Virus record (IMG/VR): IMGVR_UViG_3300046167_000039
Location: 1-35,577 of that record
Direction: 5' to 3' (one strand)
Source of the DNA: a virus
Length of the DNA stretch: 35,577 bases
A model generated the notes under the pieces. The model was given only the letters and a program-made list of their open reading frames with translations, did no database searches and was not told where the DNA came from. The translations under genes were made by a program, and so were the position numbers. Below, piece after piece: positions 25,673 to 30,685 of the stretch; the first letter of the stretch is position 1, and each line of letters opens with the position of its first letter.

Positions 25673-27421
25673 CTATGTTGTATAAATAATCAAAGGCTTT
25701 TCTTTTCCTTTAACTTTTATTGGTTTTAATAATTTTAACTTAATTTTAGATTTATTTGCAGTAGATTCACCAATCAATATATCTACACCCACTTCTTTGG
25801 TTGCTGACTCTAGTCTTGCAGCTGTATTTACACAGTCACCAATAGCAGAATAATCAAACCTGGTATCACTACCCATATTACCAATAACAGCACTTCCTGT
25901 ATTGACTCCTATACCTATAGCTATAGGTTCTGATAATTCTTGTTGTAATTGTTGTATAGATGTTTTTATATCTTGCGCACACGCTATAGCTCTATCCTCG
26001 TGATTATCTAAATCCAATGGTGCTGAAAATATTGCCATAGCTGCATCACCGATAAATTTATCTACCATACCTCCATGCGCTTGTATGCAATGCACCTGTG
26101 CAGTCAATACTTTATTCATAATCTCAGTTACTTGTTCTGGTTCTAACTTTTCGCTTAGATTTGTAAAACCTCTAACGTCTGTAAATAAAAATGTAGCTTC
26201 TTTTTTCTCACCGCCAAGTTTTAACAAGTCAGGATTATTTTGTAATTCTTTAACTTGTCTTGGATCTAAGTAATGCTCAAACTGTTTTTTTATTTGTTGA
26301 CGTAATTTATATTGTTTTTTGTAGCTTAAATACAAAGCAATAGTAGAAATTAGTATTTGAGAGATAAAAGTCCATGAAAAATCTAGCAAAACACCTTTTT
26401 GAACGCTAAAAGCTCCTGTAACGCCCGTGGTTAAGAGTAAAATTACAGCAATACTTATGCCCTTAACTATACTGAGATAATTAATTACAAGCCACGTCAA
26501 CGACACAAATATTGTCAAAATTAAAATTTCCGCTGATAAATGCCAGTTTGGAATCTTTGGTGAGTTTTCTATCAAGATTGACTCAGATAATGCTGCTTGT
26601 ATTTTATGTGGCTCTAATAATCCAATCGGTGTTGCAATTTGTGGCATGATTCCCGAGGCGGTTACGCCAACAAATACAAATTTACCAGCAACATCCATTT
26701 CTTGTAAATTCGTTTGTGGTGTATCTACCCAACTAATCCACTTACGACCTAAACTGTCTGTGTCAACTGGTGGCAATCCTTTAACGCGTATTTGTTCTAT
26801 ACCAAGATCATTTGTTTTTATAACGTAAGTATCAGCACCAACTAATGCTTTTAATACCTCTGTGCCAAATGCAGGCACATATCCATCTGGAGTTCTTAAC
26901 AATAATGGTATTCTTCTTACTAAGTTGTCTACATCAGTAGGTGCGGTTGCAATACCTTCCTGTGCATAAGCTGTTAGTAACTTTATATTTTGTATGACAC
27001 CATTTGTATTCATACCACCCACATCATCACCAAGTATGACAGTACCTGTGGTTGGTGGATAATTGCCATTGGGATTTTCAAACATTGCTAGAATAGAAGT
27101 GCCATACTTTAGTGACTCTGCAAAGTGAGCGTCACCACCCATTCTATCTGGTTGTGGAAAACCTATAACGTAACCAACACCTATAGCTCCTTTGTTTATA
27201 ATCTCTGTGTGTATTTCACCTAGTCTTTGTCTTGGTAGTGGCCAACCACCTTCGTCAGCTATGTCCTCTTCTGTAATATTTAATATAGTAAAGTAACCAG
27301 ATGGTTGCTGTTTTGGCACTAGGTAATCAAATACTTTTAACTTTAATATCTCTGTGGGCGCTGACTGATATAACAAAGGCAATGCTAGTATTATAAGTGC
27401 GGTGAATAGTATTCGTTTCAT
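25673..27421 (-). CDS. CHASE2-domain class III adenylate cyclase
   Basis: The 582-residue membrane protein starts with a signal-anchor (KRILFTALIILALPLLYQSA), then a periplasmic CHASE2 sensor (about 25-290), three membrane helices (about 296-367), and a cytosolic cyclase domain from about 405. The catalytic set is present: D415 in FTDVRGFT and D459 in KFIGD (metals), K455 (adenine-type selector), N532 and R536 in GDCVNTAARLE (transition state). S525 replaces the usual Asp/Thr partner of K455, which is common in such bacterial cyclases. It should make cAMP on the inner membrane. It abuts FecR (one-base overlap), a pairing familiar in bacteria. Very unusual in a phage. Confidence 0.9.
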   Translation of the reverse strand: MKRILFTALIILALPLLYQSAPTEILKLKVFDYLVPKQQPSGYFTILNITEEDIADEGGWPLPRQRLGEIHTEIINKGAIGVGYVIGFPQPDRMGGDAHFAESLKYGTSILAMFENPNGNYPPTTGTVILGDDVGGMNTNGVIQNIKLLTAYAQEGIATAPTDVDNLVRRIPLLLRTPDGYVPAFGTEVLKALVGADTYVIKTNDLGIEQIRVKGLPPVDTDSLGRKWISWVDTPQTNLQEMDVAGKFVFVGVTASGIMPQIATPIGLLEPHKIQAALSESILIENSPKIPNWHLSAEILILTIFVSLTWLVINYLSIVKGISIAVILLLTTGVTGAFSVQKGVLLDFSWTFISQILISTIALYLSYKKQYKLRQQIKKQFEHYLDPRQVKELQNNPDLLKLGGEKKEATFLFTDVRGFTNLSEKLEPEQVTEIMNKVLTAQVHCIQAHGGMVDKFIGDAAMAIFSAPLDLDNHEDRAIACAQDIKTSIQQLQQELSEPIAIGIGVNTGSAVIGNMGSDTRFDYSAIGDCVNTAARLESATKEVGVDILIGESTANKSKIKLKLLKPIKVKGKEKPLIIYTT

Positions 27422-28614
27422 TAATCACTCTGTGTGATTTTTATTATACTACCAGTACCGCCATTAACCTTTACCATTTTAGATGCACCATCTTGTATAA
27501 AGATAACCGTGTAACTAGCAGACGAATCTATATCTACTCTCGCTGTATCATTTACGCTACGAATAAGTGTTAAAACCTCACCAGTTATATACGATGTTAT
27601 TTGTGTATTTAAGTCTTGCCCTAGCTGTGTGCCAACTATGTTAGTTGACGTAGCATCTTGTGCTAGTTGATCTTCCTCTTGGATTTCTTGTAATGCGTCT
27701 ATAACATCTAGCAAATCTTCAAGAAAGTTTACATCAAGATAATTTATATCTAACTCTGTAAACTCTAGCTCTTGCTCTGAATCTAAAAAGTCTTCCTCTA
27801 AATAATCTATATCTAAATCATCAAAGTCTAATATATTTTTCTTTTTTGTTTGTATGGTTTCTTCTATAACTTGTTCTTGTTTTGGTGGGTTTACGATAAG
27901 CATGTTATCTATCAGCTCTAGTGTTAGGTCTAGTATAACTGGCGCACTTGGTGACTTTTCATATACATCTACAGTAGTAGCTTCGTAAGGTTTATTGAGT
28001 GTAACCGTACCCATGGCTGTAGTTACTAATATCTCACCACTAGATAAACCATTAATGTCAGGTAATAGTATTAATAAACTGCGACCAGTTTCATCTACAG
28101 TTACAGTAAAATCAGTACCCCTTATAGCTATATTGGCTGTAGGCGTTTTGAGATCTATATTATTTTTATCTATCTTATTTAGGCTACCTGTAATAAATCT
28201 GGCTGTGCCAAGACCAAAGGTAATAGCCATTTTAGATTTGCTAGGGTTTGGATCAAAGATATATTCGTCTATGGTAAGTTGCGAATGTTCGGTTAGTTTT
28301 ACTTTAGAATCGTCTAAGAATGTAATAGCCATACGACCATTAGATGTAATGGCCTCATCGTTTTGCTGTATGTCAAAAGACTCTATTGCCTGGTATGGCT
28401 TATCTCTTACAACTTGTGCCGAACCAGTCAGCTCAGATATATTGCCTACGTCAACAGCTGGTTGTTGTTCCGCTATCGTTTTGGATGACGCAAATAGTAC
28501 CGCTAGACCCAGTAGAGTTAATCTGTAACCAATCAGCAGCAAGAGTTGATGACTGTATGATGTTAAATGTTCTACTGCTTCCTGTTTGGTCAAGGTAGAA
28601 GTATCCTCCCGCAT
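27421..28614 (-). CDS. FecR-domain periplasmic protein
   Basis: The 397-residue protein has a hydrophobic leader (LLLLIGYRLTLLGLAVLFAS), then a FecR-type domain: AITSNGRMAITFLDDSKVKL, STLTIDEY-like strands, LGTARFITGSL and TPTANIAIRGTDFTV. An acidic linker follows (DFDDLDIDYLEEDFLD) and a beta-rich C-terminus. FecR domains bind periplasmic or surface ligands and pair with signalling proteins; here the next gene is a CHASE2 cyclase. ATG 28614, with AGGA seven bases upstream, is the best start; GTG 28620 is the alternative. Either way it overlaps the curlin-like gene by over 160 bases, so a shorter start at an internal TTG is possible. Confidence 0.85.
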   Translation of the reverse strand: MREDTSTLTKQEAVEHLTSYSHQLLLLIGYRLTLLGLAVLFASSKTIAEQQPAVDVGNISELTGSAQVVRDKPYQAIESFDIQQNDEAITSNGRMAITFLDDSKVKLTEHSQLTIDEYIFDPNPSKSKMAITFGLGTARFITGSLNKIDKNNIDLKTPTANIAIRGTDFTVTVDETGRSLLILLPDINGLSSGEILVTTAMGTVTLNKPYEATTVDVYEKSPSAPVILDLTLELIDNMLIVNPPKQEQVIEETIQTKKKNILDFDDLDIDYLEEDFLDSEQELEFTELDINYLDVNFLEDLLDVIDALQEIQEEDQLAQDATSTNIVGTQLGQDLNTQITSYITGEVLTLIRSVNDTARVDIDSSASYTVIFIQDGASKMVKVNGGTGSIIKITQSD

Positions 28615-29161
28615 ATCCACTTCCTGTAAAGTTTACTGTGTTGCTATCTCCATCTACATCAACGTAGTTAGTAGCACCATCATAGTTAATATCAAAATCA
28701 AAAGTGTTTCCATCACCATTGATTATCCAATCTAAATCTAAGTTTTCACTCAACGCACTTGTGCCAGTATCTAGGGTAAATGTATTTGAACTACCAGTAA
28801 CATCTACATTGTAGTCTGACCCACTAATACCATAAGTATCTGTTGGATCACCCTGTATAGTAAATGTATTACTGTCACCATCAAATTCAAAGAATCCTGT
28901 TACATTGTCACCGTAGATATCACCGAGAAATTTATTACTACCACCTATCTGGTTGATATCTAGTGTTAAATTAATACCGTCAAGGTCTAGAGCTGTTAGC
29001 GTTCCAGCTATAGAATTTAGACCGCCAATAATGTTAGATGAGCCTAGTTGTTCTAGGTCTATGTTTGCTGTAGCACCTGCTTGCTCTACAAAGATTTCAT
29101 TATCAGCCGCGAATAGCGGTAACACAATCATTGTCGCAATCAATTGTTTTAAATTCTTCAT
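28451..29161 (-). CDS. Secreted curlin-like repeat protein
   Basis: The 236-residue product has a signal peptide (about 1-19, LPLFAA) and then degenerate strand-turn repeats of 20-28 residues built on G-x-S/G-N-x-F/x: FVEQAGATANIDLEQLGSSN, INQIGGSNKF, DGDSNTFTIQ, TGSSNTFTL, GDGNTFDFD, DGDSNTVNF. These resemble curlin (CsgA/CsgB) repeats with some Gln replaced by Asp. There is no obvious Gly-rich CsgG-targeting N-terminus. Two cysteines, C224 and C236, end the chain. Its place directly behind CsgG makes it the likely secreted substrate. It overlaps csgG by 59 bases. Confidence 0.75.
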   Translation of the reverse strand: MKNLKQLIATMIVLPLFAADNEIFVEQAGATANIDLEQLGSSNIIGGLNSIAGTLTALDLDGINLTLDINQIGGSNKFLGDIYGDNVTGFFEFDGDSNTFTIQGDPTDTYGISGSDYNVDVTGSSNTFTLDTGTSALSENLDLDWIINGDGNTFDFDINYDGATNYVDVDGDSNTVNFTGSGYAGGYFYLDQTGSSRTFNIIQSSTLAADWLQINSTGSSGTICVIQNDSGTTTSC

Positions 29162-29972
29162 AACTCCAATATCCTCTATTTGTTCCTTCTTTTATAGTTT
29201 GTAGTACAGCAGTTTCTATTGCTGTCTGTAGTGCTATATTGATTGACTCGTTTCTAACTAAACCGTTTTCTATTTCTACTAGTTCGGTTGAGTCAGTAAT
29301 AAAACGAAAGATATCTTGATCTATAGATGCACTTAATATCGTTTTTGTTACTAATACTTCTAGTAATACTTTACCCGTACTCACGGATACAGTACGCAAT
29401 GAGATGGTAACTGTATCTTGTTTGTACTGCCTAGACATTCCTATTCCAAGGTATCTAGCTCCAGCACCACCACTCTTTACGTTACTTTCGTATGATATCA
29501 CGCCACCTTGCATTATTAAACCCGCGAACATAAGTGGTTGTAATTTGGTATCTTTTTTAAACTCTTGCCTGGTGCTTCTTATGATCTGCCTTTCTTTGGT
29601 TACATGGTCTAGGCCTACGCGTTCTACTACCTCAAAGAAACCATTATGATTACTGCCAGCATGTTTTAATGCTCTAATTAAGTAAGCGTCTGGTGCTTGA
29701 GTTACCGCAGATGAGAAGGTTGCGTATGTGCTATTGCTTCTTCTTTGACCAGTTGCGTCTATGAAAGATCCTGCATATATTGCTACGACTGGTTTGGCTT
29801 GGTTAGATGCTTTGACGTTAGCAAGTTCTGGAACTAGTAAAGATCCTATCTCTGGCTTTTCTATTTTTTGTATGGGTGGTAAGTTGTTTTCTATTGGGTC
29901 AAATAATAAGGCGCAACTAGAAAGTAAAATTACCGATAGGCAAAGATATAGTTGTTGTATCACCATTTGCAT
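29103..29972 (-). CDS. csgG: CsgG, curli outer-membrane secretion pore lipoprotein
   Basis: The 289-residue lipoprotein has the lipobox LLSSC (Cys20) and matches E. coli CsgG closely over YESNVKSGGAGARYLGIG (161-178), LRTVSVSTGKVL (192-203), KTILS (210-214) and FRFI (222-225). CsgG forms a nonameric outer-membrane channel for unfolded curlin. The constriction loop reads STYATFSSAV; F86 aligns with E. coli F56, while positions matching N55 and Y51 appear to be Thr and Ser. The length is close to the bacterial protein. It overlaps csgF by 56 bases and the curlin gene by 59, so translation is coupled. Confidence 0.95.
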   Translation of the reverse strand: MQMVIQQLYLCLSVILLSSCALLFDPIENNLPPIQKIEKPEIGSLLVPELANVKASNQAKPVVAIYAGSFIDATGQRRSNSTYATFSSAVTQAPDAYLIRALKHAGSNHNGFFEVVERVGLDHVTKERQIIRSTRQEFKKDTKLQPLMFAGLIMQGGVISYESNVKSGGAGARYLGIGMSRQYKQDTVTISLRTVSVSTGKVLLEVLVTKTILSASIDQDIFRFITDSTELVEIENGLVRNESINIALQTAIETAVLQTIKEGTNRGYWSYEEFKTIDCDNDCVTAIRG

Positions 29973-30354
29973 CCGTTATTGTTAAAGTTATTATTCCGTC
30001 TACAACATTATACTCTATAGTGTTACCTTCCAATTCTAAGATACCGCTTTCGCTAGCAGTCTCTCCAAACAAGTTTTCTACTAACTGTCTTGATAGTTGT
30101 GCATAGATTCTTGACTCTAGGTTTCTAATAAACCTTGCAAGCGTAGTGTTTTCTTTGTCTCTTTCTATTTGATCTTGCAACGCTTTTAGTTCTGCTTTCA
30201 CAGTCATCTTACGCGTGTATTGTTGGTTCTCTATAGTCAGATAATGTGCAGATGTGCCGATACCAGAGAATGACGGTGACTTAAACTTATGCACCATTTC
30301 ATCTGCTGATACAGATAAACATAATACCAATAAACTAATCTTTCCTTTTGTCAT
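29917..30354 (-). CDS. csgF: CsgF, curli nucleation/assembly factor
   Basis: The 145-residue protein has a signal peptide (about 1-17) and then HKFKSPSFSGIGTSAHYLTI, equivalent to the FRNPNFGG segment by which CsgF plugs the CsgG channel. A helical middle (LARFIRNLESRIYAQLSRQL) and a C-terminal strand region (YNVVDGIITLTITDANGDTT) follow, as in CsgF. In bacteria CsgF anchors curlin growth at the cell surface. It opens the cassette and overlaps the preceding membrane protein gene by 20 bases, so it is expressed with late genes. Confidence 0.9.
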   Translation of the reverse strand: MTKGKISLLVLCLSVSADEMVHKFKSPSFSGIGTSAHYLTIENQQYTRKMTVKAELKALQDQIERDKENTTLARFIRNLESRIYAQLSRQLVENLFGETASESGILELEGNTIEYNVVDGIITLTITDANGDTTTISLPIGNFTF

Positions 30355-30685
30355 TTCTTCTTGCTTTTGCTATTTTGTTGGTGTCTATTAATTGTGGTAC
30401 ACCTAACATTGTTTTTATCATAGTGTCTTGTCTGATAATTTCGTTATCCAAAGATCTAACTCTATCTATCAATGCTACTAAAATACCATGTTGCGTGTCT
30501 AGTTTTGTGCCTAGCCTTTCCTCCATGGCTGTTAATGATGTATTAACTTTCTCATCTACAGTATCTAGTTTGGTTTCCATACCATCTATGATTCTATTTA
30601 TTAGTTTCCATACAAACATGCCAAGACCTATGGCCGCAGCGATAGGAAAACCTAGTTCGGTTATAAGGGTAACAATGTCGTTCAT
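30335..30685 (-). CDS. Holin-like membrane coiled-coil protein, 116 aa
   Basis: It has an N-terminal membrane segment (LGFPIAAAIGLGMFVWKLI) followed by a long heptad-rich helix (ETKLDTVDEKVNTSLTAMEE, VRSLDNEIIRQDTMIKTM). The family occurs in many marine phages, by memory, and is thought holin- or lysis-related; this is not shown here. The ATG at 30685 overlaps the upstream stop (ATGA), and its end overlaps csgF by 20 bases. Confidence 0.65.
   Translation of the reverse strand: MNDIVTLITELGFPIAAAIGLGMFVWKLINRIIDGMETKLDTVDEKVNTSLTAMEERLGTKLDTQHGILVALIDRVRSLDNEIIRQDTMIKTMLGVPQLIDTNKIAKARRNDKRKD

Follow-up and report, generated by a model that had tools for sequence, protein, structure and literature searches.

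A phage type VIII secretion module with a single acidic curlin-like cargo and an invariant terminal cysteine pair in an epsilon15-like podovirus contig

Sibling capture, lysis, uptake, and superinfection exclusion have all been suggested as the reason why ocean phages carry curli genes. Here, we analyzed the window, a 35,577-nucleotide stretch of DNA from a marine bacterial virus (IMG/VR record IMGVR_UViG_3300046167_000039), in which a divergent curlin-like secretion substrate with a terminal Cys pair had been predicted, and asked what this protein is and what it may do for the virus. The open reading frame at 28451-29161, on the minus strand, is a real gene; the original prediction gave its coordinates correctly but left the strand unstated. 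The gene belongs to a module that runs in the order small holin-like protein, CsgF, CsgG, curlin, FecR, and CHASE2-adenylate cyclase, with the following features.

30335-30685, minus strand: small membrane/coiled-coil protein, holin-like (YvrJ/BhlA type), 116 amino acids (phrog_18771, 1e-16; phrog_4898 holin, 7e-4)
29917-30354, minus strand: CsgF, the pore partner (PF10614, 1.4e-18)
29103-29972, minus strand: CsgG, the outer-membrane secretion pore (PF03783, 1.8e-44; alignment; lipobox LLSSC)
28451-29161, minus strand: curlin-like protein of 236 amino acids, the sole cargo gene of the module, with a signal peptide at about residues 1-18, degenerate curlin repeats to about residue 223, and a Cys-flanked tail at residues 224-236 (CVIQNDSGTTTSC)
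28454-28492, minus strand: terminal motif C-x11-C, residues 224-236
27421-28620, minus strand, start codon provisional: FecR-domain protein with a hydrophobic N-terminal segment (PF04773, 8.9e-10)
25673-27421, minus strand: CHASE2 domain plus class III adenylate cyclase (PF05226, 2.3e-27; PF00211, 2.9e-21)

CsgG overlaps the start of the curlin gene by approximately 59 nt, and the overlaps between neighboring module genes suggest translational coupling. CsgF carries the N-terminal motif FKSPSFSG, and no CsgE was found in the window. The cyclase keeps the metal-binding Asp, Lys, Asp and Asn/Arg motifs (FTDVRGF, KFIGDA, and DYSAIGDCVNTAAR), so that it looks active, judged from its residues. The order CsgF-CsgG-curlin-FecR-(second curlin)-cyclase was conserved across the viral contigs compared, and the 116-residue protein, the first gene of the module, accompanies it in most relatives. 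The gene ahead of csgF, in the window as in L073 (2429-2779) and L258 (5971-6267 and 6267-6539), encodes a holin-like, single-transmembrane coiled-coil protein of 90-116 amino acids and is sometimes present in two copies.

Next, the identity of the cargo was analyzed. The curlin alone matched PF07012 with an E-value of 0.65, below the cut-off; 59 of 94 relatives matched this family, the best at 3.3e-9, and a profile of the 94 relatives matched the solved curlin 8c50_A (E 1.3e-9). A hidden Markov model of the first curlin of pelagimyophage and Melnitz modules matched the window curlin over its full length (E 1e-39), and the gene is encoded beside CsgG and CsgF. The predicted strand-Gly-Asn rhythm was also recovered: a pattern of hydrophobic alternation plus GxxN occurred 10 times against 0.74 expected, a count that none of 20,000 shuffles matched. 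Two exact QX10Q kernels are left (QAGATANIDLEQ and QTGSSRTFNIIQ). At least 594 confirmed stretches in IMG/VR hold relatives of this curlin. A search among deposited phages found no close DNA relative. Among 63 distinct sequences, median dN/dS was 0.058 outside the overlap with FecR and 0.10 inside it, indicating purifying selection on the curlin.

The fold of the protein, which had been proposed as a check, was predicted by AlphaFold2 as a stacked two-sheet beta-solenoid of 17 short strands (pLDDT 82.9, pTM 0.80), with low confidence in the C-terminal tail (64). The best viral models in BFVD were phage proteins annotated as "Curlin associated" (TM 0.76). Solved parallel beta-helices superposed well on the model (VIA-align, Z 17.6), among them those of SufB/SufD, which are right-handed; the curlins studied so far are left-handed, in contrast to the right hand implied by our model. 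Since curlins modeled from sparse alignments often receive the wrong hand (PMC10192328), we do not regard the hand as a finding. Solved curlins did not figure in the Foldseek and VIA match lists, and their absence was given no weight. Homology and the modeled stacked beta fold thus support the prediction of a curlin-like secretion substrate.

We propose, with a probability of roughly 0.7, that the protein serves as the only curlin in a phage type VIII secretion module and forms an acidic curli-type fiber on the infected cell. Late in infection, the curlin would be exported by Sec, pass unfolded through the phage CsgG-CsgF pore, fold outside as a beta-solenoid, and stack end to end into the fiber. 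FecR and the CHASE2 cyclase, which may span the envelope, could sense the activity of the module or signal it across the inner membrane. The phage would probably gain from surface adhesion, by which host cells are held together or superinfection is blocked. Adhesion is favored because a PA14 domain, which may bind carbohydrates, is present in the second curlin of HTVC008M (L083, 7558-8880). However, Buchholz et al. observed that cells infected by the curli-carrying phage Melnitz did not clump (PMC9004378).

The portal, head, scaffold, and terminase of the window are of podovirus type, with epsilon15 among the terminase matches, and a canonical holin with three transmembrane segments (PF11351, 2e-17) and an M15 endolysin (PF08291, 4e-13) adjoin the module downstream. 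These genes bear on whether the CsgGF pore may instead be a pinholin-like lysis or leak device, with the curlin as a plug or passenger without a role in fibers, as put forward for Melnitz (PMC9004378). The holin-like protein at the head of the module and the position of the module beside lysis genes fit this idea. Nevertheless, lysis by CsgG is less likely here because the holin and endolysin are encoded just downstream; a lysozyme-like reading frame lies at that place in another carrier contig, and the strong purifying selection on the cargo would be needless for a passenger. We consider a lysis device unlikely.

The terminal Cys pair was then analyzed. The curlin has no cysteines besides C224 and C236, and C-x11-C was invariant in all podovirus-type relatives examined, down to 51% identity: it was kept in 81 loci chosen by their curlin, in all 71 tails of the set chosen by CsgG, and in four more distant contigs (51-67% identity). 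The FecR reading frame stays open through as much as ~170 nt at the 3' end of the curlin gene (28451-28620), and the last 30-54 curlin codons are likewise open in the FecR frame of the relatives listed. Within this overlap, curlin dS was lowered (0.68 versus 1.18), and dN/dS in the FecR frame exceeded 1, so the overlap lends no support for constraint on the FecR residues there. A conserved FecR ATG at codon -54 is uninformative, because TAT GCx (Tyr-Ala) in the curlin frame forces it. Codons 224 and 236 switch between TGT and TGC while the overlapping FecR residue changes between Val and Ala, indicating that the cysteines are under selection as residues of the curlin; this ruled out that the pair is a by-product of the FecR frame. 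The pair noticed in the original prediction is therefore real and selected, and the suggested disulfide is plausible from the residues. Such a bond would fasten the solenoid at its C-terminal edge or cross-link subunits. Cys pairs are also found in other phage curlins, internally in curlin-1 and as a terminal C-x4-6-C in curlin-2.

As predicted, no Gly-rich segment follows the signal peptide: the first 22 mature residues hold two Gly, and a targeting segment of the E. coli N22 type is absent from the window curlin. This is less unusual than had been supposed, since CsgAs with an N22-like sequence are the exception and curlins in general do not share it (PMC10192328). Across the phage curlins, the first mature repeat ranks with the best-conserved stretches, and this repeat (ADNEIxVxQxGx..DxxQxGxxN) may target the protein to the pore as N22 does elsewhere. 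The replacement of Gln by Asp was likewise confirmed (Asp 11.9%, Gln 3.7%; net charge -29), but it does not set this protein apart, because the curlins sampled from marine phages have a similar acidity (Asp 10-14%, net charge from about -22 to about -34).

Degenerate repeats, the net charge, and an invariant Cys pair at the place where the next subunit would dock might also describe a monomeric, soluble adhesin, secreted or on the surface, or a superinfection-exclusion cap, whose disulfide tail covers the solenoid edge and stops fiber growth. However, QX10Q kernels are kept in the edge repeats, and the acidic curlin R15.5 forms fibers (PMC12345197); such a monomer is thus rather improbable. 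A calcium-binding, RTX-like beta-solenoid, as the Asp-rich turns had suggested, is hardly credible, because no RTX nonapeptide GGxGxDx(L/I/V/F/Y/A) was found in the curlin, homology points to curlins, and the Asp richness is probably salt adaptation, as suggested by two relatives from other water bodies (charge -7 and -8; taken as freshwater from their sister contigs) that lack it. The alternative of a dedicated CsgB-like nucleator was not upheld, given that the protein aligns over its full length with curlin-1 of other phage modules. No second curlin was found beside this one within the window, which is a contig, so that a copy past its ends is possible.

Returning to the fiber-forming curlin, we compared its module with known systems. 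Curli modules of phages that combine curlin, FecR, and cyclase were reported in 2020-2022, as was their spread between phage families (PMC7029224, PMC9004378, and PMC9599517). HTVC023P-type podovirus pelagiphages and pelagimyophages (PMC9599517, PMC7029224) share the order CsgF, CsgG, CsgA/B, FecR, optional second CsgA/B, and cyclase, and also lack CsgE; the window has one curlin only. L073, a 59.5 kb contig that looks HTVC023P-type, encodes a curlin ~81% identical to that of the window, whereas the carrier here is epsilon15-like, a podovirus with a terminase dissimilar to that of the HTVC023P-type phage 023Pt_psg01. The first curlins of Melnitz (MZ577098) and HTVC008M (KC465899) occupy the same slot after CsgG and are homologous over their full length (28-30% identity), but the curlins of these phages lack the terminal C-x11-C. 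Bacterial CsgA/CsgB (R15.5 8c50, E. coli CsgA) share the QX10Q kernel, xGxxN turns, beta-solenoid, and CsgG/CsgF; in contrast, the window repeats are degenerate and Gln-poor, N22 is missing, a Cys pair is present, and FecR and the CHASE2 cyclase stand in place of CsgD/CsgE. The epsilon15-like carrier, the invariant Cys pair, the curlin/FecR frame overlap, and the reshuffling of curlin against CsgG were not found in the portions of the literature consulted and appear new. The separate canonical holin and endolysin beside the module are a new detail relative to the modules as described there; the main text of PMC9599517 mentions neither cysteine, disulfide, nor holin. An unrelated phage lineage is thereby added to the carriers, and a compact module that has one curlin, separate lysis genes, and a Cys pair open to mutation offers a simple version for direct tests of secretion and fiber formation.

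In the set of loci chosen by curlin, identities were ~83% for curlin and ~61% for CsgG, and the set chosen by CsgG reversed this (CsgG 82%, curlin 60%). The reading that the curlin is the most conserved module gene was therefore rejected, its apparent lead over CsgG being explained by sample selection and mosaicism. Mosaic modules were observed between L314-L328 and L046-L074, in which similar CsgG accompanies divergent curlin and vice versa. This suggests recombination inside the module, with curlin types reshuffled against CsgG types. A quite doubtful extension is that a self-nucleating, single-component curlin, locked or cross-linked by its C-terminal disulfide, is a cassette swapped among unrelated phages, so that the fibers of cells infected by different phages could co-polymerize and hold hosts together.

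A chromosomal origin was also considered and rejected, as the closest matches in genome_contigs were short contigs from MAGs that share this module and are probably phage. Four contigs assigned to Maricaulis and Pelagibacter MAGs (L245, L246, L247, and L258) carry the phage curli module and are probably mis-binned phage contigs.
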